Below, piece by piece: positions 50,883 to 63,315 of a DNA stretch of 64,000 nt (the first letter of the stretch is position 1; every line of letters begins with the position of its first letter). The translations under genes and the position numbers were made by a program. Source of the DNA: Saprospiraceae bacterium. Lineage in GTDB: Bacteria > Bacteroidota > Bacteroidia > Chitinophagales > Saprospiraceae. Under the pieces are notes generated by a model. That model did not search any database, had not been told where the DNA came from, and saw only the letters and a list, made by a program, of their open reading frames with translations. The stretch spans positions 62,001 through 126,000 of the forward strand of contig JAHDFP010000004.1 in assembly GCA_020628095.1 (NCBI GenBank), read 5' to 3'.

Positions 50883-51878
50883 GTGGCTCCTCTTATCCGC
50901 TTTACGTCCAAAGGAATATATTGTCCACAGGCAGATGTATATATTGATCCATGGAAGTCAGTGGATAAGGCACTTATCACGCATGCTCATGCAGATCATG
51001 CCCGACGCGGACATAAGGGTTATCTGTGCCACCACCATAGTATTAATATATTAAAGTATAGACTGGGTAACATCAATGTCCAAGGAATAGAATACGAAAA
51101 AACCATTAATATAAATGGTGTAACCATCTCCTTTCATCCCGCAGGGCATGTCGTGGGATCGGCACAGATTAAGTTGCAGAATAACAAAGAATCATGGGTT
51201 ATATCAGGTGATTACAAAATAGAAAATGACAACCTTTCTGTCCCTTTCCAGCCTGTTACCTGCGATTACTTTATTACAGAATCCACTTTTGGTCTGCCAG
51301 TCTTCCAGTGGGAAGACCAACGTGTCGTAATGGACAAGATCAATAAATGGTGGTCTCATAATAAAGAACAAAAAGTGCCAAGTCTCATATCCGCATACTC
51401 CCTAGGAAAAGCGCAACGCCTGATACAGAATGTAGATCACTCCATAGGTCCAGTCCTTTGTCATCCCGCTATTGCCAATACTAATGAAGCCATCATCGCA
51501 TCAGGTATCAAGATGAAAGAAAGTCATCCCATCGGAGATAATTATAATAATACCGAAGCCCTCTTTATATGTCCACCGGCAGCGATAGACTCTTTGTCCA
51601 AAAAGCTAGGTAAATCTTCTGTAGCGATTGCATCTGGATGGATGGCTCTGAGAGGCGCGAGACGTCGTCGCAATGTCGAACATGGTTTTGTGCTATCCGA
51701 TCATGCCGACTGGGCTGGACTCAATCAAGCCATAAGAGACACAGGTGCACAAAAAGTATATGTCACACATGGATATAGCGATATATTCTCAAAGTGGTTA
51801 AACGAAAAAGGTATACCATCGCAGACGGTCGAAACAGCTTTCGAAGGTGAAAAAATGGTAGAAACCGAAGAGGTATGA
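50883..51878 (+). CDS. Ligase-associated DNA exonuclease (metallo-beta-lactamase fold)
   Basis: 331 residues. The metallo-beta-lactamase motif is ALITHAHADHARRGH (HxHxDH), with later ligands in ISFHPAGHVVGSAQI, WVISGDYK and VLSDHADWAGLNQAI. The beta-CASP-like second part has SLISAYSLGKAQRLI and VYVTHGYSDIFSKWL. It resembles Artemis/Pso2-type nucleases and belongs to the ligase-associated exonuclease group. The GTG start lies 2 bases after the apaG stop; its end overlaps the ligase gene by 4 bases. Confidence 0.93.
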   Translation: MAPLIRFTSKGIYCPQADVYIDPWKSVDKALITHAHADHARRGHKGYLCHHHSINILKYRLGNINVQGIEYEKTININGVTISFHPAGHVVGSAQIKLQNNKESWVISGDYKIENDNLSVPFQPVTCDYFITESTFGLPVFQWEDQRVVMDKINKWWSHNKEQKVPSLISAYSLGKAQRLIQNVDHSIGPVLCHPAIANTNEAIIASGIKMKESHPIGDNYNNTEALFICPPAAIDSLSKKLGKSSVAIASGWMALRGARRRRNVEHGFVLSDHADWAGLNQAIRDTGAQKVYVTHGYSDIFSKWLNEKGIPSQTVETAFEGEKMVETEEV

Positions 51879-53461
51879 AACAATTTAGCACACTGTTCCA
51901 GGCTATAGAATCCACCACGAGTAGCAATGCTAAAATCTCCGCCATTGTAAATTATTTTGAGCAAGCTCAAGATCTGGATAAGCTCTGGTGTATCGCCATC
52001 TTTTCTCATAAAAGACCAAAGCGAAGTGTCACGACGACCTTATTGCGGACATGGGCTGCGGAACTAGCCGATATACCTCAGTGGCTCTTTGAAGAAACTT
52101 ATCACATCGTAGGCGATCTGGCCGAAACGATATCCAAAGTCACGCCTGCTAATAAGAATAAGGAAAGTAAAACTCTGAGCGATTGGATCCAATACATCAT
52201 AGATCTCAAAGAACTAGCCGAAGAAGAAAAAAAAGAAAAAATATTATACGCTTGGAGTGCTCTTAATAGTGACGAACGCTTTCTTTTCAATAAACTAATC
52301 ACTGGCGGTTTCCGTATGGGCGTCGCACAAAAAACTATCGTCAAAGCCCTTTCTAGACTTCTCGGACAAGAAGAAAATGTAATAGCGCATAAGCTCATGG
52401 GTAACTGGACGCCACAGAACATCAGCTATCAGGAATTACTCCTGACGGAAGATCAGAAGCACAATCTATCTAAGCCATATCCTTTCTATTTGGCTTATGC
52501 TCTAGACAGCGACTTACAGAATTTGGGCGCACCAGATGACTGGTTCGCAGAGTATAAATGGGATGGTATCAGAGGGCAGATTATAAAAAGAGATAGTCAT
52601 ATCTATGTCTGGTCACGGGGAGAAGAACTTGTCACACATCAATATCCAGAGTTCGATGCTCTAATAGATATTCCAGATGATTTTGTTATAGATGGAGAAG
52701 TCCTTGTTATAAAAGAAGAAAAGATCGCCTCATTCAATGCTCTACAAAAAAGAATAGGAAGGAAAGCCGTATCTAAAAAAATGAGAACTGAGTATCCTGT
52801 CAAGATGATGGTCTATGACCTACTCGAATTAAATAACGCGGACATCAGAGATCAGCAGCAACAGAAAAGACGACTCCTACTAGAAAAACTTTTTTTAGGT
52901 ATCTCCTCAGAGATGCCACTTCGGTTGTCTCCCTTGGTTTCTTTTTCGACATGGGAAGAACTGCATGACATAAGAAATAACATCCGCAAGAAAGATGCAG
53001 AAGGTCTTATGCTCAAAAGAAAAACAGGACCATATAAGACAGGACGTAAAAAAGGAGATTGGTACAAATGGAAGGTAGACCCTATGACCATAGACGCCGT
53101 CATGATATATGCTCAGAGGGGTCATGGTCGTCGTGCTAACCTATTTACCGATTTTACCTTTGCGCTTAAGGATGGAGATAGGTTAGTTCCTTTCGCCAAG
53201 GCCTATAGTGGGCTGACAGATATAGAGTTCCGAGAAGTTTCACAATTTGTTAGGAAGAATACATTAGAAAAATTTGGGCCTGTCAGTAGCGTACGTCCTG
53301 AGTTAGTCTTCGAAGTCGCCTTCGAAGGTATCGCCGAATCTAAAAGACACAAGTCTGGTATTGCACTCCGCTTTCCAAGAATAAAAAGATGGCGAAAAGA
53401 TAAACCAGTAAGCGAAATAAATACTTTAGATGATATCAAGAAATTCTTGTCTTCTGATTGA
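51875..53461 (+). CDS. ATP-dependent DNA ligase (ligase-associated repair cluster)
   Basis: 528 residues. An N-terminal helical domain (1-195) is followed by the adenylation domain with the nucleophile Lys in FAEYKWDGIRGQ (motif I), VIDGEVLVI (motif III), DAEGLMLKRKTGPYKTGRKK (motif IV, EGxMLK) and WYKWKV (motif V), and then an OB fold ending in SGIALRFPRIKRWRKDKP. It seals nicks with ATP. It lies between the exonuclease and helicase with 4-base overlaps on both sides, so the three are coupled. Confidence 0.95.
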   Translation: MKQFSTLFQAIESTTSSNAKISAIVNYFEQAQDLDKLWCIAIFSHKRPKRSVTTTLLRTWAAELADIPQWLFEETYHIVGDLAETISKVTPANKNKESKTLSDWIQYIIDLKELAEEEKKEKILYAWSALNSDERFLFNKLITGGFRMGVAQKTIVKALSRLLGQEENVIAHKLMGNWTPQNISYQELLLTEDQKHNLSKPYPFYLAYALDSDLQNLGAPDDWFAEYKWDGIRGQIIKRDSHIYVWSRGEELVTHQYPEFDALIDIPDDFVIDGEVLVIKEEKIASFNALQKRIGRKAVSKKMRTEYPVKMMVYDLLELNNADIRDQQQQKRRLLLEKLFLGISSEMPLRLSPLVSFSTWEELHDIRNNIRKKDAEGLMLKRKTGPYKTGRKKGDWYKWKVDPMTIDAVMIYAQRGHGRRANLFTDFTFALKDGDRLVPFAKAYSGLTDIEFREVSQFVRKNTLEKFGPVSSVRPELVFEVAFEGIAESKRHKSGIALRFPRIKRWRKDKPVSEINTLDDIKKFLSSD

Positions 53462-55899
53462 ATCTAGCTAAAGAACATATAAAAAAAGCGCACGATTGGT
53501 TTGAGTCTATGGGCTGGTCGGCTTTTCCTTTTCAGACCTCTGCATGGAATGCCATCTGCGCGAACCAAAGTGGGATCGTCAATGCCCCCACAGGTAGTGG
53601 TAAAACTTATGCCCTTTTCGTCGGAGCCCTATGTCGAAGTTTGACCATCAAAAGGAATAAAAGACATGGTCCATTAATAATCTGGATTACACCCATACGA
53701 GCGCTGGCCAAAGAGATCAAAATTTCTATAGAAAAAGCGATACTCGGTTATGACCTAGATTGGCGTGTAGAGATACGCAGTGGAGACACCACGTCTACGC
53801 AGCGCAAAAAGCAAATGAGCCACCCACCAGAAGTCCTCATTACCACACCAGAGAGCCTGCATGTTATCTTAGCAACCAAGGGTTATACTAAGTTTTATAA
53901 AAGTCTAGATACAATTATCCTGGACGAATGGCACGAACTTATGGGATCTAAGCGTGGTGTCCAATGCGAGCTCGCCATCTCTAGAATGCGCGGTCTCAAT
54001 CCTAATCTGTCCGTCTGGGGTATATCCGCAACTATCGGAAACTTAGACGAAGCACTCGATGTCCTTCTGGGAGAACACAAAAAACCGAACAGCCCGATCA
54101 TCATAGCAGAAGTACCTAAGAAAACAGAAGTCATCTCTATCTTTCCCGATAATATAGAAAAGTACTCATGGGCTGGTCACTTAGGACTAAAACTCGCTGA
54201 CAAATTAGTACCCATCATCAAAGCGTCTAAGACCACACTCATCTTTGCTAACACCAGAGCACAAAGCGAAATATGGTATCAAAAGCTGCTGGATATTGCA
54301 CCAGAGCTCTCTGGCAGCATGGCCGTGCATCATGGCTCCATAAGTCGAGATATACGTAACTGGGTCGAAGAACAATTATACGAAGGCGCACTCAAGGCCG
54401 TTATCGCCACCTCTAGTTTAGATCTAGGGGTAGACTTTAGGCCTGTAGAGAATGTCATACAGATAGGTAGTCCTAAAAGTGTCGCGAGATTTATGCAGCG
54501 TGCTGGACGATCTGGTCATGCTCCAGGTGCGGTAAGCAAGATATATTTTTTACCTACGCATACTCTAGAGCTTATCGAGGCGGCGGCACTAAGAGATGCC
54601 CTCAAAATAAAAAACGTAGAGGTACGTATTCCCTATATACGCTCCTGGGATGTGCTGATACAATATTTAATGACGCTTGCTGTCTCAGAAGGATTTGAGG
54701 CAGAACAAATATATCAAGAGGTAAAACAGACTCACTGTTATCAGAGTATGACAGAGGAAGACTTAGATAAGATTCTCAGTTTCTTAGTACACGGTTCTCA
54801 GTCTCTCAAAGCGTATGACGAATTTCAAAAAGTAATTATCCAAAAAAACATCTATAAGGTAATCGACAGAAGAATTGCTCAGCGCCACAGACTTTCTATC
54901 GGCACGATTTCCAGCGAAGCCATGCTCAATGTCAAATATCTCAAAGGTGGCCGCATCGGATCTGTAGAAGAATGGTTTGTAAGCCACCTCAATGTAGGAG
55001 ATAGCTTTTGGTTTGCAGGACGACCACTTCAGTTAGTCATGATAAAAGATATGAATGTCCTAGTCAGAAAAAGTAAAAAAGTTACCAAAAGGATTCCCTC
55101 TTATCTTGGTGGTCGCGTGCCACTTAGTACAGAAATGTCAGAGGTCCTACGCACTAAACTATACCAGTATGAAAAAGATAGAAGGGGCGAAAAAGAATTG
55201 AACAGATTAGAGCCCTTACTGGAATTACAAAAAGAAAAAAGTATTCTTCCGTCGGAAGAAGAATTTCTAATAGAATACTTCGAGTCTAAGGAAGGTTATC
55301 ACCTACTTATGTACCCCTTTGAGGGTCGCTATGTCCATGAAGGTATGGGTGCACTCATTGCACAAAGGCTTGCCAAGAAAATGCCGATCACTTTTTCGAT
55401 AGCCATGAATGATTATGGTTTTGAGTTGCTCAGCGACAAAAAAATAGACATCGAAAAAGAACTTTCTAAATCTCTCTTCTCTCCACATAACCTGAGCGTC
55501 GACATACAATCCAGCATCAATGCCGCAGAATTGGCACGAAGAAAATTCAGAGATATTGCGCGTATTTCTGGATTGATTTTTCAGGGCTTTCCTGGTAAGA
55601 TCAAAAAAGATCGTCACTTGCAGGCTTCTTCTTCTTTACTCTTTGATGTATTCAAAGATTACGAGTCAGACAACTTACTCTATCTACAGACCTTTGAAGA
55701 AGTGATGACCTTTCAGCTAGAAGAAACTCGCATGAAAAGCGCACTGAATAGAATACAAAACCAGAAGTTCGTCTTTCAGTATCCGACACACCCTACGCCA
55801 CTCGCTTTTCCTATTATGGTGGACCGTCTAAGAGAAAAAATGACCTCTGAGAGATTAGAGGATCGCATCAGTCGTATGACGGTTAAGTTTCTTAAGTAA
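53458..55899 (+). CDS. Ligase-associated DNA damage response DEXH-box helicase (Lhr-like)
   Basis: 813 residues. Helicase motifs: GIVNAPTGSGKTYALF (I), ITPIRALAKEI (Ia), TTPESLHVIL (Ib), ILDEWHELMGSKRG (II, DEWH), SATIGNL (III), AVIATSSLDLGVDF (V) and RFMQRAGRSGHAPG (VI, QRAGRSGH). A long C-terminal region resembles the Lhr-core winged-helix domains. Such helicases partner the ligase and exonuclease in repair. The start codon is TTG, overlapping the ligase stop. The usual fourth member, the pdeM phosphoesterase, is absent here. Confidence 0.94.
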   Translation: MNLAKEHIKKAHDWFESMGWSAFPFQTSAWNAICANQSGIVNAPTGSGKTYALFVGALCRSLTIKRNKRHGPLIIWITPIRALAKEIKISIEKAILGYDLDWRVEIRSGDTTSTQRKKQMSHPPEVLITTPESLHVILATKGYTKFYKSLDTIILDEWHELMGSKRGVQCELAISRMRGLNPNLSVWGISATIGNLDEALDVLLGEHKKPNSPIIIAEVPKKTEVISIFPDNIEKYSWAGHLGLKLADKLVPIIKASKTTLIFANTRAQSEIWYQKLLDIAPELSGSMAVHHGSISRDIRNWVEEQLYEGALKAVIATSSLDLGVDFRPVENVIQIGSPKSVARFMQRAGRSGHAPGAVSKIYFLPTHTLELIEAAALRDALKIKNVEVRIPYIRSWDVLIQYLMTLAVSEGFEAEQIYQEVKQTHCYQSMTEEDLDKILSFLVHGSQSLKAYDEFQKVIIQKNIYKVIDRRIAQRHRLSIGTISSEAMLNVKYLKGGRIGSVEEWFVSHLNVGDSFWFAGRPLQLVMIKDMNVLVRKSKKVTKRIPSYLGGRVPLSTEMSEVLRTKLYQYEKDRRGEKELNRLEPLLELQKEKSILPSEEEFLIEYFESKEGYHLLMYPFEGRYVHEGMGALIAQRLAKKMPITFSIAMNDYGFELLSDKKIDIEKELSKSLFSPHNLSVDIQSSINAAELARRKFRDIARISGLIFQGFPGKIKKDRHLQASSSLLFDVFKDYESDNLLYLQTFEEVMTFQLEETRMKSALNRIQNQKFVFQYPTHPTPLAFPIMVDRLREKMTSERLEDRISRMTVKFLK

Positions 55900-56040
55900 G
55901 TTCTTTTTCGGAAGTTGAAGCGATAACTTTTTGTGAAGTTATTCTCAATATCTCAGCATTAAAGTAATTCATAATAACACACCAAAAAACTCGGTTCAAT
56001 ACCAACCAAATAAAATCAACACGATAAAAATTATTCATTG

Positions 56041-56122
56041 ACAATTTAGAATTGTATATTAGTTATGATAGAATGTTGGTGTACTTAAGGTCATGGTGTT
56101 AACAGGTTGTTGAGCCAACATT
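56041..56122 (+). promoter_or_regulatory. Leader with inverted repeats upstream of the VioB-like operon
   Basis: Between the helicase and 56151 there are three nested symmetry elements: ACAATT-TAG-AATTGT (56041-56055), AATGTTGG (56072-56079) pairing with CCAACATT (56115-56122), and TGTTG-AGC-CAACA (56108-56120). No TAnnTTTG box is visible. They could be an operator and a folded leader. A 7-pair hairpin at 55923-55942 without a good T tract is the only candidate end for the repair operon. Confidence 0.4.
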
Positions 56123-56150
56123 AAATCGTTAGTTCAAAAAACCAAGTTAC

Positions 56151-58109
56151 ATGTCATACCTCAATCTACCTCGGCTCGTATTCACGGGCGACTTTCAAGC
56201 TGATGTCAATACTGTTAATAATGATGTAAGACATTATTATAATCCTGCATTTACGGAAGATAATTGGATGCAGGAAGAGTCTGGACATGGAGGCTGGTGG
56301 AATCCTGATGGAGGCTCTATCTTTCGATTAGTCAATTGTTCAGTAAAGCAAGCCTGCTATCCTGACGGTAGTCAGGCAAACGATTCTGAAAAAGACCCTA
56401 TAATCGGTAAGAATGTCTCAGGTCCTCTAAACGCATCCAGTGCCAAAATTGTAGACCTCGATCCCCAGTTCCAATTTACCTCACAATTATGGGGACTCAA
56501 ATTATGCATCTATGATAATGAAAACGAAGTACTACTAAGTGGTACTGTAGAGCCTTCAGGCTTCAAAGATTTGCAATTCAGACAATTTAAAGATGTTATA
56601 AATGGTCAAGCACTAGGGGCATCATGGACTTCTATAATAAGTGATGTCCAATGGGGCGAGAATGCCAACAAGTCTAAAATATTATCAGAGCTAAAAAGAC
56701 AATGGGAAAAAACAAAATTACTTTCCTGCCAACTGGTTAGTTTCGGTTATTATAAGGAAATAGGTAGTGAAAGATTTTCCCTTGGACGCTTGCTGGGCTC
56801 TATAGGTCCTTACTTGGAAGGAGAACCAAAACAGTACCCTCAGGCAAGAAGGATTATAGGAATAGGTGGACAATTCCAATATAGCAATAGTCTTTATGAC
56901 GAGGATAGCTCAATGCTCACGATAGATATAGGAGGCTCCATACCTCTTAGTACTCCTTTAGGGGAAACAGATATGGAAGGAGAATTGTGCATAGGCGTTG
57001 CTAAAGTAGACAGGCTGCGAGAGGTACTATCTGGCTCAGATAAAAAAGACAAAATCAGTGTCAACAAGATTGTCAAAATAGGGGAGATACCATATTACAA
57101 AACAGACTGGATACTCCAGACGGCAGGCATCTCTGATTTCAAAGTCAGTCATGAGGCAAGAGAGTATATCGACTCCAAACAACTTGTTCTTTTTACGAAC
57201 GTAAAAGAAGACCCAGAAAGCTACCAAGTTCTGGCTTGCGAAACTAAAGACGGATTGTCAATACGTGCTGACGATAACGTGAGGCGCATAGACGCAAAGT
57301 CTTCTGGTTCTGTTGATTTCCAGTTTAAGGTACGTACTTATCAGTGGGGTAAAAAACTAGCTGGCGGCAAAATTTCTTTTAAGCCGTGTGAGCCTAACCA
57401 CATGCCTTTAGTTGACTCTAATACATGTATTACGCCAGAAGTGCCTAAAGGCATTGACCCTGACAGTGGTCAGGTCATAGAACCCTGCACATGCTGGCCA
57501 AAAGAAACTATACTGCTCAATGGTGAGCTAAGTCCCGAAATAATATCAGATGATAATGGAGAAGCCACAGTAACTGTTTCTGTCTTCGATCCAAAAAATC
57601 CGCGTGGATACATAGACGGTCAGATATTCTTGATTGGGTATACTTTAGAAAACTTACCTAAAGAACAGCAATATACATTTTTCGGTAATTGTCTGATGGA
57701 TGGATTGATTATGCATGTCAGGAATGCCTTCGAAGAAATAAAAGAGCCAGAGTGGAGTGACATATCAGAGATTATGACACAATATCGCAATCTGTATCCC
57801 TTGATGACCAAGAATATCTTGGACCTAGGTAATCCCAAGGAAATAGTGCAACGACAAAAAATTATGCTTTACGCATTTACACGTGATATCCATGATCCGA
57901 CGTACATGCCTGTCTCGAGAGACTTATCTGAAGGCAAAAGAAAAACTATCGTCAACTGGCTGAAAACAGGCATGAAGGGAGCTGATGATTTGCACTCTAT
58001 GCCTACAGCTTATAACAAAGCATCAATACCGCATCTTATAGAAGGAGTAAGCCCGACCAGCCAACCACTTAATACCAGAACCAAGGATAATTTATTCTCT
58101 AGCGAATAG
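56151..58109 (+). CDS. VioB/RebD N-terminal-domain-like protein
   Basis: 652 residues, no signal peptide. The opening MSYLNLPRLVFTGDFQADVN resembles the start of VioB/RebD (the FPRxxFRG-type beginning). The C-terminal segment YRNLYPLMTKNILDLG, then YMPVSRDLSEGKRKTIVNWL, resembles the YPFMSDKxFxLxD ... YMPSTRELS region that precedes the ferritin-like domain in VioB. VioB/RebD condense two oxidised indole (imino) acids. Here the gene stops where the VioB ferritin-like part would begin, and that part is encoded by the next gene. A Cys-rich loop (KPCEPNHMP...EPCTCWP) is also present. Assignment rests on recollected motif similarity; the activity is unknown. Confidence 0.6.
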   Translation: MSYLNLPRLVFTGDFQADVNTVNNDVRHYYNPAFTEDNWMQEESGHGGWWNPDGGSIFRLVNCSVKQACYPDGSQANDSEKDPIIGKNVSGPLNASSAKIVDLDPQFQFTSQLWGLKLCIYDNENEVLLSGTVEPSGFKDLQFRQFKDVINGQALGASWTSIISDVQWGENANKSKILSELKRQWEKTKLLSCQLVSFGYYKEIGSERFSLGRLLGSIGPYLEGEPKQYPQARRIIGIGGQFQYSNSLYDEDSSMLTIDIGGSIPLSTPLGETDMEGELCIGVAKVDRLREVLSGSDKKDKISVNKIVKIGEIPYYKTDWILQTAGISDFKVSHEAREYIDSKQLVLFTNVKEDPESYQVLACETKDGLSIRADDNVRRIDAKSSGSVDFQFKVRTYQWGKKLAGGKISFKPCEPNHMPLVDSNTCITPEVPKGIDPDSGQVIEPCTCWPKETILLNGELSPEIISDDNGEATVTVSVFDPKNPRGYIDGQIFLIGYTLENLPKEQQYTFFGNCLMDGLIMHVRNAFEEIKEPEWSDISEIMTQYRNLYPLMTKNILDLGNPKEIVQRQKIMLYAFTRDIHDPTYMPVSRDLSEGKRKTIVNWLKTGMKGADDLHSMPTAYNKASIPHLIEGVSPTSQPLNTRTKDNLFSSE

Positions 58110-58151
58110 ATCCATCAATCTTACAATTACATAACCCGACGATAAAAAACC

Positions 58152-59273
58152 ATGCTAAGACTACAACCAGAACTTTTACAAAAAATAGAAGCTGCCAAAG
58201 AGCCAAAGGATTTATTCGGTATCATGCAAGGTGCTATAGAACTGGAGCACTCTACCATCCCTCCTTATCTCACGGCTATGTTTTCTCTCAAGCCAGGTAA
58301 GAATAGAGAAATCTGGGGGATCATACATTCTGTGGTGCTAGAAGAAATGCTACACATGACTATTGCCTCTAACATTCTTATTGCCTTGGGAGGTGATCCT
58401 AATTTTATACATAAAGACTTTATACCCAATTATCCCAGCCCCCTGCCGATGAATATAAGTGCCAAAGATCCAGACGATAAGGATGAAAATTATCTTACGG
58501 TTAGTCTGGGTGGCTTCTCTAAGAAGCAGCTTCACCACGTTTTCATGTCTATAGAGCAACCCGAAAGTCCTATACACTATCAAGTCAAAGAAGGCCCACC
58601 TAAAGGTCTCTTATCAAGTGCTGAAAGCGGAATCGAAGAACCTGAGTATGCCACCATCGGTGCATTTTATAATGCTATAAAAAAGAAACTACTAGACCTA
58701 GATCTTGATCTATTACCAGGAGCAGATCGACCGCAGGTCATTCCTGATAAGTATTACCCCTCAGACGATTGTTTCCACATCCGCACGGTAGATGATGCTA
58801 TTAAGGCCATTGATATTATTGTAGAGCAAGGAGAAGGCACTAGTGAAGGTACAGAAGACGGTTCGCCACTAGACCCGGACGGAGAACTGGCGCATTATTA
58901 CCGATTCGCAGAGTTATATTATGGGCGACGCCTTGTAAAAGATCCTGATGCCCCTGGCAAATATTCTTATAGTGGTCCTGTGTTTCCTTTTGAGGTAGAT
59001 GGACTATGGAATCTAAACGCGGATACCAAGGCTGGCCAGTTGCCAGAAGGAAGTGCTCAACGCCGACAAGCAGATCAGTTTAACTATGTCTACAGAAAGT
59101 TGCTCCTGACGTTACACCAAGCCTTTAATGGGGAGCCAGAAAAATTTGACGCCACCATAGGTCTGATGTATGATATAAAACTCGTGGGAGAAAAACTAGT
59201 CTCCATGCCTTATCCAGGCAAAGTGGGTCTTAACTGTGGACCACCATTCGAATACGTCAACCTTAACAAGTAA
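58152..59273 (+). CDS. Ferritin-like protein related to the VioB/RebD C-terminal domain (PF12902 type)
   Basis: 373 residues. The ferritin-like four-helix core is in the first 120 residues: MQGAIELEHSTIPPYLTAMF (Glu30 and Glu32 as candidate iron ligands) and VVLEEMLHMTIASNILIALG (Glu65 and His68, an ExxH pair). HYRFAELYYGRRLV and the C-terminal LHQAFNGEPEKFDATIGLMY are further family-like stretches. In VioB/RebD this domain is fused behind a domain like the preceding gene product. I infer a two-subunit non-heme-iron oxidase or dimerase. It starts 42 bases after its neighbour and is followed by a VTT-domain gene 3 bases later. Confidence 0.75.
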   Translation: MLRLQPELLQKIEAAKEPKDLFGIMQGAIELEHSTIPPYLTAMFSLKPGKNREIWGIIHSVVLEEMLHMTIASNILIALGGDPNFIHKDFIPNYPSPLPMNISAKDPDDKDENYLTVSLGGFSKKQLHHVFMSIEQPESPIHYQVKEGPPKGLLSSAESGIEEPEYATIGAFYNAIKKKLLDLDLDLLPGADRPQVIPDKYYPSDDCFHIRTVDDAIKAIDIIVEQGEGTSEGTEDGSPLDPDGELAHYYRFAELYYGRRLVKDPDAPGKYSYSGPVFPFEVDGLWNLNADTKAGQLPEGSAQRRQADQFNYVYRKLLLTLHQAFNGEPEKFDATIGLMYDIKLVGEKLVSMPYPGKVGLNCGPPFEYVNLNK

Positions 59274-59276
59274 CGG

Positions 59277-59942
59277 ATGAAGCGATATTTGTTCCTATTG
59301 GTTGGCCTAGCCATTGTATTGCTGATTCTTTTTGGTATAGGCTTATTCATCTTACCTGATGCATGGCATAATCCTTCCGATTGGCTCATAGCGGGTAATA
59401 TATCGAGTAGCCTGATGGGAGTTGGTTTGCTTATCGCTGACGTCTTACTTCCAGTGCCTTCTACTATTGTGATGACTGCCTTGGGGGCTATACACGGCAT
59501 TGTTATCGGTACATTATTATCTCTGGTGGGTAACCTTGGCGCGGCGGCGTTCGGTTTTTGGTTAGGACGAAGGAAGGATGGGGTTATCGGAAGATACGTG
59601 TCTACAGACGACCGTATCGCGGCATCTGCTTTTATACGGGACTGGGGTGCTGTGGGAATTATTCTCTCACGTCCGATTCCTATTCTTGCTGAAAGTGTGG
59701 CAATCCTGGCAGGTACTTCGCCAGCAGTTTCTTGGCCTAAGCTGATGATATGCGCGCTTATAGGAGCACTGCCAGCCTCTTTTATCTATGCCTGGGCTGG
59801 AGCACAGGCGATTACCTTACAGAGCGGTCTCTATGTATTCGCTGGTGTGATACTTGTTGCGTCTATTTTTCTTCTGATCAGCAAGTCCTATTATCGACAG
59901 GAGAAGTTATATACAGAAACTAATCGTGCACTAAACAATTGA
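59277..59942 (+). CDS. DedA/VTT-domain integral membrane protein
   Basis: 221 residues with about five membrane segments. The VTT (DedA/TVP38) signatures are LPVPSTIVMTALGAIHGIVI (re-entrant loop), LVGNLGAAAFGFWLGRR (GxxxG) and GIILSRPIPILAESVAILAG with the conserved Arg and Pro. DedA-family proteins move phospholipids or undecaprenyl-phosphate across the membrane. In an operon of a putative biosynthetic enzyme pair it may export or protect against a lipophilic product; that is inference. Confidence 0.83.
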   Translation: MKRYLFLLVGLAIVLLILFGIGLFILPDAWHNPSDWLIAGNISSSLMGVGLLIADVLLPVPSTIVMTALGAIHGIVIGTLLSLVGNLGAAAFGFWLGRRKDGVIGRYVSTDDRIAASAFIRDWGAVGIILSRPIPILAESVAILAGTSPAVSWPKLMICALIGALPASFIYAWAGAQAITLQSGLYVFAGVILVASIFLLISKSYYRQEKLYTETNRALNN

Positions 59943-59947
59943 ACCTT

Positions 59948-60355
59948 ATGGATCAAAAGACCTACGATTCTATCGTTGCAGAACTCATGACTTTATCAGA
60001 CACTTGGAATAAGTTATATGCAGCAGAAAAGTTTGAAGAAATGAAAAATCTGGCGACCAAAGATGTCGCCATCGCTAATGTACAAGTATCAACAAGTATT
60101 ACTGGTCTCATCTATGGTCGTCAGGCATATTATGACGGGATATACCAGGCCTATGTGGGTGCTTCTGGAAAGGAAAAAAACTTACTAGTCATGGATTACG
60201 ATGACTGGGAATATATTCCGCTAGGAGATGAGAACCATTTTTATACTATCGGAAAGTACACCCTCCAACCTAATATTGTCGGTGTCAATTGTTGGCTGTT
60301 AAAAAGAGAATCGACAGATGATCCGTGGCTTATTTATAGAGTAATCAATAATTAA
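59948..60355 (+). CDS. NTF2/SnoaL-like small protein
   Basis: 135 residues from the ATG at 59948 (a TTG at 59939 is in frame but less likely). The sequence is compatible with an NTF2/SnoaL cone fold: an N-terminal helix LSDTWNKLYAAEKFEEMKNL, the strand LATKDVAIANVQVSTSITGL, an insertion YGRQAYYDGIYQAYV, and a final sheet HFYTIGKYTLQPN to WLLKRESTDDPWLIYRVINN. This fold serves ketosteroid-isomerase-like and polyketide-cyclase enzymes as well as binding roles. It lies between the VTT gene and the frameshifted gene. Confidence 0.6.
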   Translation: MDQKTYDSIVAELMTLSDTWNKLYAAEKFEEMKNLATKDVAIANVQVSTSITGLIYGRQAYYDGIYQAYVGASGKEKNLLVMDYDDWEYIPLGDENHFYTIGKYTLQPNIVGVNCWLLKRESTDDPWLIYRVINN

Positions 60356-60383
60356 AAAATTTCATAAAAAAAGAATAATTCGC

Positions 60384-61386
60384 ATGTCAGAAAATCAACC
60401 CCACAAATTTCCAGAAGAGTACATATTCCCGACCTACGGTGTACATAACCCTCCTGAATATAGTCCATGCCTAAATCATGATGGTCTCTATCCACGCCAA
60501 CCTTGGGAACCATCAGACCCCCTGTATCCAGAATATTGGTCAGCAAAATATGTATATAATACATAAGAATGGTGAGAAAGATCCACCACCCTATGACGAT
60601 TATCCTAGAAAACTTGTAGAAGGAGATGATTATACAATATCTACTGGCGAAACCTATTATGACAGCACATGGCGCGGCCCTAACGGAGAAGAAGGGGCCA
60701 TGATGGAGCTCTATCATAAGGCGAGTCTACCTATCTTTCCGACACAAAACAATTATACATCTGCTTTTATCTCTCTTGGTAATAAGGCTTATTATCTCAC
60801 CTTTGATGATAAGCCAGAGGAGGTTAATTTACCCCCTATCTGCCTGATGTCACCCCTTAACCATCCTCCTAAAAGAGATTTTATCAAGCATCTTCCCTAT
60901 AGTCCTGGAGATAGTGCGCGACTAGGCGGTCGTATACAAGGATACTCTTTCTGGGCAAGCCTTAACGAAGATCCTGATCAGCCACCATCAAAGGGTGAAC
61001 CACCTTTTCAGACTGGTGTAACGCCGATACCTGATCCTAATGTAAAACCAGGTATCCTATTTGGCTATGCTTTCAAGAGTTATGTCGAGCCAGATGCACA
61101 TGACCAAACTGCACCCGCTTACAGACACCCTCACTCTTTTTATTTTTCTGGTTGGCCTGGTGCCCCTGTCGTTGCACCCTTAGTAAGCCAGAACTATACA
61201 GAATTTTCTATGAAGCAACCTGACCCTGCTAAGACATGGAACCTTGTTGCTGAACATGCCGCTGGTAAGCCTATACCACCTAAGTATCTATTCGATGGCT
61301 TTCCTGATCAAAGCAAATCCGAGGAAGGTGAGACTCTTGTACGCGGTTGTCCCATGGCTGGGCTATGGTCTGGTAAGCGTAAGTGA
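60384..61386 (+). CDS. Hypothetical protein with apparent frameshift near its N-terminus
   Basis: Two overlapping frames make one plausible protein of about 333 residues. Frame A (60384-60566) reads MSENQPHKFPEEYIFPTYGV and ends at WSAKYVYNT. Frame B continues at HKNGEKDPPPYDDYPRKLVE and runs to 61386. Both parts have the same Pro/Tyr/Asp-rich style, and the frame-B residues upstream of HKNG are merely frame A read one base off. One A too many in the AAAA run at 60545-60548 would explain it, giving WSANMYIIHKNGEK. It could be a sequence error, a natural pseudogene or frameshifting. The product family is unknown; HSFYFSGWPGAPVVAPLVS is a distinctive block. It is the last gene of the VioB-like operon. 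Confidence 0.6.
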
Positions 61387-61412
61387 TACTACGAGTACTA
61401 TAACGTTATCAG

Positions 61413-61451
61413 CACCCTTTATTGATAAGATTTCAGTAAAGGGTGTTTTTT
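61413..61451 (+). terminator. Terminator of the VioB-like operon
   Basis: CACCCTTTA (61413-61421) pairs perfectly with TAAAGGGTG (61437-61445) across a 15-base loop, and is followed by a T-run to 61451. Confidence 0.85.
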
Positions 61452-61644
61452 ATCTATAGCAGTATGATTAAAACCACTGTAAGTAAGCAATCGATGGATG
61501 ATCTCGATATAAATCAATCGCATGATAGATAGAAAAGGTCTAATTTACACCTAACAGACTATCGTTCTTATAATTTTATGCGATTTTTTTATTGAAAATC
61601 AGGCAGTTATACACACACCTATCAAACTTTTCCTTCCCAATCCC

Positions 61645-61675
61645 TTGTTTTCTCATTAAAAGAAATATACATTTG
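61645..61675 (+). promoter_or_regulatory. Promoter of the rplM-rpsI-rpsB-tsf operon
   Basis: -33 TTG at 61645-61647, spacer of 20 bases, -7 TACATTTG at 61668-61675, a perfect TAnnTTTG. The rplM start lies 44 bases downstream, the same layout as at rpsF. Confidence 0.88.
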
Positions 61676-61719
61676 CACCGCTTTAGAATAAAGCAAATTA
61701 AGTAAGTAAACATATTACT

Positions 61720-62163
61720 GTGGACACTTTAAGTTACAAAACCGCATCCGCCAAAAAATCAGAAGTCGAGAGACAATGGTTTGTCGTCGATGCACAATCA
61801 GATGTCGTCGGACGATTATGTACAAAGATCGCGACAGTGTTAAGAGGTAAACATAAGCCGAGTTTTACGCCGCATGTAGATACAGGAGACTACGTCATCG
61901 TTATCAATGCGGAAAAGGTTAGATTTTCTGGTCAGAAAATGCAGCAGAAAATTTATCAGAGATACTCTGGATACCCTGGTGGTCAAAAGGAAAGAACGGC
62001 AGCAGAACTACTTGCCAAAAAGCCTACAGACATCATAGAAAAAGCAGTCAGAGGAATGCTACCTAAAAATAGACTGGGTAGACAGATGTTCAAAAAATTA
62101 TATGTGTACACTGGATCAGAGCATCCACATGCTGCACAACAACCAAAAGAACTTAATATATAA
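61720..62163 (+). CDS. rplM: 50S ribosomal protein uL13
   Basis: 147 residues. The core is [40 protein letters not shown] and [19 protein letters not shown], then [15 protein letters not shown]13 is an early assembly protein of the large subunit. The start is a GTG at 61720 (no in-frame ATG upstream of the conserved block). It is followed by rpsI after 7 bases, the usual rplM-rpsI order. Confidence 0.97.
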
Positions 62164-62170
62164 TCTCTAT

Positions 62171-62557
62171 ATGGAAGTTATTAACACAATAGGACGAAGA
62201 AAAGCAGCTGTCGCTAGAATATACATGAAAGCGGGCAATGGCAATATCCTTGTCAATGGAAAAGATTACAAAGAGTATTTTCCTCAGGAAAACATAAGAT
62301 ATAACATAGAAGACCCGCTCAATATCGTAGAAGGTCTCAAGTCTTATGATCTAAAGGTCAATGTGTCAGGAGGCGGATTCAAAGGTCAGGCAGAAGCCAT
62401 CAGACTAGCTATATCCAAAGCTCTTGTTATCATCAACGAAGACAACAAAAAGTCTCTAAAAGAGAAAAAATATCTTACTCGAGACCCAAGAGTCGTGGAA
62501 AGGAAAAAGTATGGAAAGCCAAAGGCAAGAAAGAGCTTCCAGTTCTCTAAGAGATAA
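62171..62557 (+). CDS. rpsI: 30S ribosomal protein uS9
   Basis: 128 residues from ATG 62171: MEVINTIGRRKAAVARIYMK, NILVNGKDYKEYF, VNVSGGGFKGQAEAIRLAIS and the C-terminal LTRDPRVVERKKYGKPKARK with final SFQFSKR, whose last Arg reaches the P-site tRNA. An upstream in-frame ATG at 62102 lies inside rplM and is rejected because the family starts at 62171. Confidence 0.98.
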   Translation: MEVINTIGRRKAAVARIYMKAGNGNILVNGKDYKEYFPQENIRYNIEDPLNIVEGLKSYDLKVNVSGGGFKGQAEAIRLAISKALVIINEDNKKSLKEKKYLTRDPRVVERKKYGKPKARKSFQFSKR

Positions 62558-62592
62558 TCATTTAGTATTAATTTTTTTCAATAAAGAATAAA

Positions 62593-63315
62593 ATGGCAAA
62601 ACCTACATATAAAGAACTATTAGATGCTGGAGCACACCTAGGACACATGAAAAGAAAGTGGAATCCTAAGATGCGTCCTTACATCTTTATGGAAAGAAAA
62701 GGTATACACATCATAGACCTCAATAGGACCATGGAGTATATGGACAAAGCAGCGGCGGCACTTAAGCAAGTAGCGAAGTCAGGTCGTAAAGTGATGTTCG
62801 TAGCGACCAAGAAGCAGGCTAAAGAAAATGTAGCGAAGTGTGCGAGAGAGGTGAACATGCCTTTCGTGACGGAAAGATGGTTAGGAGGAATGATGACTAA
62901 CTTTTCTACGATCAAGAGATCTGTCAAGAAAATGAATAACATCGACAAACTCTTAGCTGATGAAAATGTGACGAGTATTACCAAAAAAGAAAGGTTAACT
63001 CTCACAAGAGAGCGAAACAAGCTAGAGAAAGTACTAGGCGGTGTAGCTAATATGAACAGATTGCCAGCGGCAATTTTCGTAGTCGACATAACACATGAAC
63101 ATATCGCTATCGCAGAAGCCAGAAAATTAGGAATCAAAATCTTTGGTATCGTAGATACCAACTCTGATCCTACATTGATTGACTTCCCTATTCCAGCCAA
63201 TGATGATGCGTCACGCTCTATCAAGATGATAACGGAGTATATGTCGGAGGTTATCAAAGAAGGTCTGGATGACAGACGAAAAATGAAGGAAGACCAAAAA
63301 CAAGCCGTTGCGTAA
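62593..63315 (+). CDS. rpsB: 30S ribosomal protein uS2
   Basis: 240 residues. Family blocks: LLDAGAHLGHMKRKWNPKMR, VMFVATKKQAKENVAKCARE, MPFVTERWLGGMMTNFSTIK, NRLPAAIFVVDITHEHIAIA and IFGIVDTNSDPTLIDFPIPA with a terminal helix. S2 bridges head and body of the small subunit. It lies 35 bases after rpsI; tsf follows. Confidence 0.98.
   Translation: MAKPTYKELLDAGAHLGHMKRKWNPKMRPYIFMERKGIHIIDLNRTMEYMDKAAAALKQVAKSGRKVMFVATKKQAKENVAKCAREVNMPFVTERWLGGMMTNFSTIKRSVKKMNNIDKLLADENVTSITKKERLTLTRERNKLEKVLGGVANMNRLPAAIFVVDITHEHIAIAEARKLGIKIFGIVDTNSDPTLIDFPIPANDDASRSIKMITEYMSEVIKEGLDDRRKMKEDQKQAVA

Follow-up and report, generated by a model that had tools for sequence, protein, structure and literature searches.

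In the present study, we analyzed a 64,000-nucleotide (nt) stretch of DNA from a Saprospiraceae bacterium (GenBank assembly GCA_020628095.1, contig JAHDFP010000004.1, positions 62,001 to 126,000 of the forward strand), hereafter called the window. A cassette of five genes at window positions 56151-61386 opens with two genes, P1 and P2, which by sequence are a split pair of the VioB/RebD type. The cassette was rare. It encodes the halves of this pigment-coupling enzyme family in separate genes and combines them with partners for a membrane or export step, an arrangement suggestive of a small-molecule pathway that has not been described. Our preferred reading, to which we give a probability of roughly 45%, is that P1 and P2 would form a two-subunit iron oxidase acting on an aromatic precursor by coupling or oxidizing it. 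The membrane step that goes with it would be interchangeable, provided by a VTT/DedA-type protein here and by Ebo proteins elsewhere. Other loci and genomes are denoted below by L and G numbers.

The P1 and P2 Families Match the Two Parts of VioB/RebD in Order

The comparison with VioB was made with the NCBIfam profile TIGR04492 (length 1003) and not with actual VioB or RebD sequences. A sequence-only reading of the window had proposed that P1 resembles the long N-terminal part of VioB/RebD, and it had named a profile match as the test of this idea. Such a match was found at the level of the family, in which 8 of 9 aligned members matched the profile with a best E-value of 2.4e-7, but not for window P1 alone, which gave a non-significant E-value of 0.061 (residues 540-624 on VioB 514-598). 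The only other family listed for the P1 members was matched by one of them, at an E-value of 0.14. In a scan of ten proteins, P1 of L028 matched VioB 1-51 (E 5.2e-4), P1 of L027 matched VioB 513-583 (E 2.4e-7), and P1 of L032 matched VioB 515-596 (E 2.9e-4), so that the matches of the P1 proteins fell at VioB positions 1-51 and 513-598. Distant P1 relatives also matched the profile (L040, 3.5e-10; L042, 1e-8; L049, 2.2e-4). The equivalog cut-off of TIGR04492 (1250 bits) was not reached by window P1 (11.1 bits) or P2 (10.5 bits).

The Pfam search of P1 members gave a best E-value of only 0.047, and the P1 family is without a Pfam entry; a PDB sequence search with the P1 profile yielded no relative at E 10, and a scan of viral contigs with the P1 alignment yielded none. 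The AlphaFold model of P1, built from a two-row alignment, had a mean predicted local distance difference test score (pLDDT) of 31.

P2 matched PF12902 with an E-value of 1.1e-60, and its profile matched the solved ferritin-like structure 3hl1 with an E-value of 1.4e-23. Among the three P2 proteins scanned against the VioB profile, those of L028 (E 1.4e-5) and L049 (E 4.5e-7) matched VioB 669-833, and that of L027 gave only an E-value of 0.031. These results agreed with the proposal that P2 is ferritin-like and akin to the C-terminal part of VioB/RebD. Seven residues of P2 (E32, H33, E65, H68, E135, E228, and H248, including an ExxH motif) were invariant across the 11 P1-paired rows, a set of Glu and His residues that would be compatible with an iron site. 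Because P1 proteins match at VioB 1-51 and 513-598 and P2 proteins at 669-833, the two together cover VioB in order.

P1 and P2 Are Linked Across Genomes

We opened 12 loci with a close P1 relative (the window, L002, L043, L025, L032, L029, L026, L027, L028, L031, L039, and L094). P1 adjoined P2 in 11 of these, across four bacterial groups, with the gene order of VioB. The exception was L094 (G089, 72% complete), which carried P1, a lipoprotein-like gene, and a VTT gene, and P2 was absent from that genome. In the plasmid collection, a comparison of positions placed P2 beside P1 in 8 of 8 records with P1. The linkage in related genomes, which the sequence-only reading had also set as a test, was thus observed in both collections.

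The Pair Is Associated With ebo Export Genes

In four loci, L027 (Aureibacter), L039 (G489, Bacteroidota), L028, and L031 (Mycetohabitans endofungorum B13 and B14, NZ_CP132745.1 and NZ_CP132742.1), ebo genes directly followed the pair on the same strand, and EboE stood beside the pair. In L026 (Gloeothece), eboB- and eboD-type genes preceded the pair, and in Azospirillum B510, EboE lay ~410 kb from it. EboE occurred in 5 of 8 plasmid records with P1 (three of them from M. endofungorum), compared with 48 of 72,556 records overall; the listed records with P1 or EboE are mostly large.

The two Mycetohabitans strains gave the clearest view of how the pair and the ebo genes are combined. Between B13 and B14, the 5 kb of DNA from eboE to eboF showed 96.4% identity and the Ebo proteins 95-99%, whereas P1 and P2 just upstream were 36% identical, with one 106-base DNA match in P2. 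Two diverged pairs therefore stand before one ebo cluster, which, from these sequences, looks as if the pair had been exchanged beside ebo. The left flanks of the two loci also differed, and the hpn genes to the left of the B13 pair lay ~45 kb from the B14 pair.

According to PMC6282210, Ebo exports the scytonemin monomer for oxidative dimerization in Nostoc, and according to PMC9235831, a relative of EboC farnesylates quinolines. In light of these two papers, the association with ebo suggests that the metabolite is a small aromatic compound.

Layout of the Cassette and Its Remaining Genes

The features of the cassette were as follows (aa, amino acids).

56151..58109, + strand: P1, 652 aa; separate protein related to the N-terminal ~600 residues of VioB/RebD
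58152..59273, + strand: P2, 373 aa; PF12902 ferritin-like; putative counterpart of the C-terminal part of VioB/RebD
59277..59942, + strand: VTT/DedA-type membrane protein (gene 3), 221 aa; PF09335, 49.8 bits against a cut-off of 33.9
59948..60355, + strand: gene 4, small protein; 77% identical to L002:6403-6810; no family above cut-off
60384..61386, + strand: gene 5, split over two frames (60384-60566 and 60478-61386); belongs to a dedicated family that partners the pair; frame broken in the window
61411..61447, + strand: terminator-like hairpin of 15 pairs with a T run

All five genes lie on the same strand with operon-like gaps of 42, 3, 5 (to ATG 59948), and 28 nt, and the terminator-like hairpin follows them, both as previously described; the region held 9 terminator-like sites compared with 4.4 expected. 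The private leader that had been described was not borne out: a gap of 251 nt precedes P1, and promoter-like sites in the region were at chance level (15 observed and 15.8 expected).

Gene 3 was correctly recognized as a DedA/VTT protein, with a PF09335 (VTT_dom) score above the curated cut-off. The window VTT gene is one gene from P1. VTT genes also adjoined P1-type genes, or lay one gene from them, in L043, L094, and L098, and one lay 3.7 kb away in L096. These four further loci make it plausible that the VTT protein would serve as the membrane component of the pathway, as had been supposed.

For gene 4, the start is probably ATG 59948, as in L002, and not TTG 59939. An NTF2 fold had been suggested for its product and was left without support: the best Pfam match had an E-value of 0.12, no profile was above its cut-off, and the AlphaFold model had a low-confidence mean pLDDT of 47, with a best PDB fold match in Foldseek at an E-value of 0.24.

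Gene 5 in L002 is a single open reading frame (ORF) of 324 aa. In the window, the first 60 aa (60384-60566) and the main part (60478-61386) lie in different frames, and the gene 5 family profile detected both pieces. The earlier placement of the start at 60478 was in the wrong frame, since the N-terminal part is the ORF at 60384-60566. Near 60545, the window lacks 5 nt relative to L002; the broken frame could reflect a genuine lesion or a mistake in the assembly.

Gene 5 relatives occurred in 4 of 72,556 plasmid records, all within ~2 kb of the pair (two being near-identical Mycetohabitans records). Among genomes, they were present in two of the 298 from the family, each of which also carries the pair, and in one of the 395 from the phylum, namely the window genome. 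Gene 5 is a dedicated partner family of the pair, found only within ~2 kb of it. By eye, its N-terminus was signal-peptide-like in Azospirillum B510, Gloeothece, and Mycetohabitans, and not in L002 or the window. Five members gave a best E-value of 0.08 against Pfam and NCBIfam, a PDB sequence search with the gene 5 profile was empty at E 1, and a viral-contig scan with the gene 5 alignment found no relative. In M. endofungorum B13, a gene 5 remnant that keeps only parts of both ends lies between eboD and eboE (L028:13550-13966), and the ORF of B14 is full-length.

Upstream of the cassette lie genes that, by their sequences, look like those of a DNA ligase and a large helicase, and downstream presumably ribosomal protein genes. 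The run directly upstream (50883-55899) also includes an exonuclease-like gene ahead of these two, and in none of the 9 fetched genus relatives did such a run precede rplM.

Distribution and Mobility

P1 was rare. With the family profile, matches were obtained in at least 5 of 395 Bacteroidota genomes, three of them weak (E-values of 3.7e-5 to 4.6e-8), and in at least 8 of 298 family genomes, four of them weak; these counts are lower bounds, because a distant copy in G305 (L049) was not listed in the 298-genome scan. The nearest cassette found was L002, in a Saprospiraceae metagenome-assembled genome of the same family (G220, 77% complete). The window genome comprises 4.2 Mb in 33 contigs.

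The distribution within the genus bears on the possibility that the cassette in the window genome is a recently acquired, decaying remnant without present function. P1 was found in 0 of 13 same-genus genomes, several of which are incomplete; by sequence, an mnmG-like gene preceded rplM in 5 of 9 fetched genus relatives, and the cassette was before rplM in none of the 9, two of those stretches being short on that side. These absences, together with the frame-broken gene 5, would fit such a remnant. However, P1, P2, VTT, and gene 4 keep open frames, identity to L002 is 67% for P1 and 75% for P2 with no stops in either, the break in gene 5 may be an assembly error, and base composition did not single out the cassette (39-46% guanine-cytosine content compared with 37-46% in its neighbors). 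We consider a functionless remnant improbable, and acquisition by transfer likely, though not proven.

Evidence Against the Preferred Reading and Alternative Explanations

Several results weigh against the reading of P1 and P2 as an aromatic-coupling oxidase and are gathered here. The profile match to VioB was absent for P1 of L039 in the ten-protein scan. L002 carries the cassette without a VTT gene, and EboE was absent in three pair-bearing genomes, namely the window genome (G000, 0 matches), L002 (77% complete), and L043. P1 and P2 distances were correlated over 11 rows (r 0.85, with 0 of 5000 permutations as high), but the correlation fell to r 0.26 (603 of 5000) without L002 and L025, and was r 0.39 (309 of 5000) when L043 was also removed. 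It was not counted as support because its significance was lost once the close copies were removed. The main gap in the mechanism is the missing amino-acid oxidase: by sequence, none was among the genes at 51875-63315, and no LodA relative was present in the window genome, in which FAD (flavin adenine dinucleotide) oxidases were not searched genome-wide. The earlier statement that such an oxidase is missing thus stands for the operon and for LodA relatives, and not for FAD oxidases of the whole genome. Elsewhere, LodA relatives are present in the genome of L043, and ~4.5 kb upstream in L031 there is a LodA-type quinoprotein oxidase with its flavoprotein, beyond an intervening transposase.

PF12902 proteins also occur with other partners. 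Without P1, they pair with GMC oxidoreductases in Saprospiraceae and rhizobia, and these pairs (L045-L048, L058, and L060, in Saprospiraceae and on rhizobial plasmids) form a separate cassette. On a Burkholderia pyrrocinia plasmid, a PF12902-type gene (L057:5944-7092) lies near several RebB-family R-body genes. PF12902 genes are noted beside lodA in a fungus in PMC4417212.

The GMC and R-body partners, an operon in which no amino-acid oxidase is encoded, and the VioB scores far below the equivalog cut-off would all suit an iron-dependent oxidative pair with the same folds and another reaction, such as oxygenation, peroxide handling, or lipid or peptide modification, without aromatic coupling. 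Yet the close P1-P2 loci retain both VioB parts in VioB order, and the ebo link points toward an aromatic compound. In addition, a 22-row tree placed 11 P1-paired and 6 GMC-paired PF12902 proteins on the two sides of one branch with support of 88/79; 0 of 500 shuffles gave a split as low, and long branches were flagged. On balance, we regard a reaction other than aromatic coupling as somewhat unlikely.

P1-type genes likewise have a wider setting. They were without any P2 in 5 of the 9 genomes checked, among which G089 has a fairly close P1 relative and G115, G232, G401, and G512 have distant ones. Distant P1-like genes adjoined 7TMR-DISM cyclases in L042:6229-10178 and L096:5065-9068 and a cyclase-type gene with a PADLOC cyclase-profile match in L049:3990-8266, and one lay a single gene from a kinase in L040:6418-11771. 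In L041, L094, L095, and L097, P1-type genes adjoined lipoprotein-like genes of 472-529 aa with weak, sub-threshold Kelch matches. Because of the P2-less genomes and the cyclase, kinase, and lipoprotein-like neighbors, the P1 superfamily is wider than this enzyme, and P1 may be binding rather than catalytic.

The cyclase and kinase neighbors hint at a sensory use of the P1-like domain. P1 could accordingly be imagined as a ligand-binding or sensory protein and the cassette as a membrane stress or signaling unit in which P2 would sense iron or redox state and catalysis would be secondary; the VTT proteins, being membrane proteins, would fit this picture. Against it, no cyclase or kinase stood beside the pair in the 12 close-P1 loci, as far as their genes were named, and the ebo linkage suggests metabolism. 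We consider a sensory unit highly doubtful.

Proposed Function and Significance

What the sequences establish is the homology, its order, the gene linkage, and the two diverged pairs before one ebo cluster; the complex, the metal, the reaction, the substrate, the product, and the roles of the VTT protein, gene 4, and gene 5 are inferred. P1 and P2 would be two subunits that together equal one polypeptide of the VioB/RebD/StaD type, in which P2 would hold the iron center and P1 would give the remaining active site or a substrate-binding part. In the cytoplasm, the pair would couple an aromatic precursor of the imine or enol type by oxidation, or oxidize it in some other way. Membrane handling of the product would follow, through the VTT/DedA protein in the window genome and through Ebo proteins in other lineages, and gene 5 might act on the same compound, after export where a signal peptide is present. 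The sequence-only reading had already raised a new oxidative condensation or modification pathway with its own membrane component. Its split-enzyme part agreed with our results at the level of the family, its membrane part is plausible, and its oxidative chemistry is best kept as a conjecture.

As a wider and tentative proposal, which we place well short of probable, the N-terminal region of VioB/RebD may belong to a broader superfamily without a Pfam family. The P1-P2 pair would be its two-subunit oxidative-coupling form, horizontally mobile and exchanged as a unit beside interchangeable membrane-handling genes, either ebo or VTT/DedA depending on the lineage. The pair would determine the chemistry of its pathway, and, with gene 5 as its own partner, it would make a class of aromatic metabolites for export that has not been described.

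VioB, RebD, and StaD start well-known bisindole pathways, and a two-gene form would allow the role of each half to be tested separately. The split pair is accessible to such work, since it occurs in named strains of Azospirillum, Gloeothece, Aureibacter, and Mycetohabitans. Moreover, the ebo link gives a candidate partner enzyme for this export cluster, and the cargo of ebo outside scytonemin producers becomes directly testable.

Comparison With Known Systems

The closest known system is that of VioB/RebD/StaD (iminophenyl-pyruvate dimer synthase and chromopyrrolic acid synthase, TIGR04492). Both parts of these enzymes have homologs in the cassette in the same order, with a C-terminal part of the PF12902 type. 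The known system is a single protein of ~1000 residues, whereas the cassette has one ORF of 652 aa and another of 373 aa, separated by 42 nt, and its scores fall well short of the 1250-bit equivalog threshold. The cassette is also without an adjacent amino-acid oxidase (VioA/RebO/StaO) and has the VTT gene, gene 4, gene 5, or ebo genes as partners instead. Violacein or rebeccamycin biosynthesis proper was therefore rejected, in agreement with the sequence-only reading, as the genes are split, no oxidase stands beside them, and the scores are low. For chromopyrrolic acid synthases, PMC10851217 describes heme content and the coupling of two imines. A split VioB was not found in the titles and abstract starts of the literature on VioB/RebD/StaD, iminophenyl-pyruvate dimer synthase, and ebo, with most subscription papers outside this scope.

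A known anti-phage defense system was likewise rejected, as none of the five proteins of the window cassette matched a PADLOC family at E 0.1. The pairs of GMC oxidoreductase and PF12902 genes share the PF12902 second gene with the cassette; their partner is a GMC protein and not P1, and they lie on the other side of the tree branch.

DedA proteins are reported to act as undecaprenyl-phosphate flippases. Gene 3 shares PF09335 with UptA and others of this group, but it scored only 19.1 bits against the UptA model NF052604, below the equivalog cut-off of 250 bits, and it sits in the P1-P2 operon.

The last comparison is with the ebo cluster (eboA-F), described for scytonemin export in Nostoc in PMC6282210. 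The main text of that article and of PMC5133447, where searched, does not use the word ferritin. The window genome is without EboE; in the four loci where the pair directly precedes ebo, the two systems meet, and both would place a membrane-handling step near an oxidative one.

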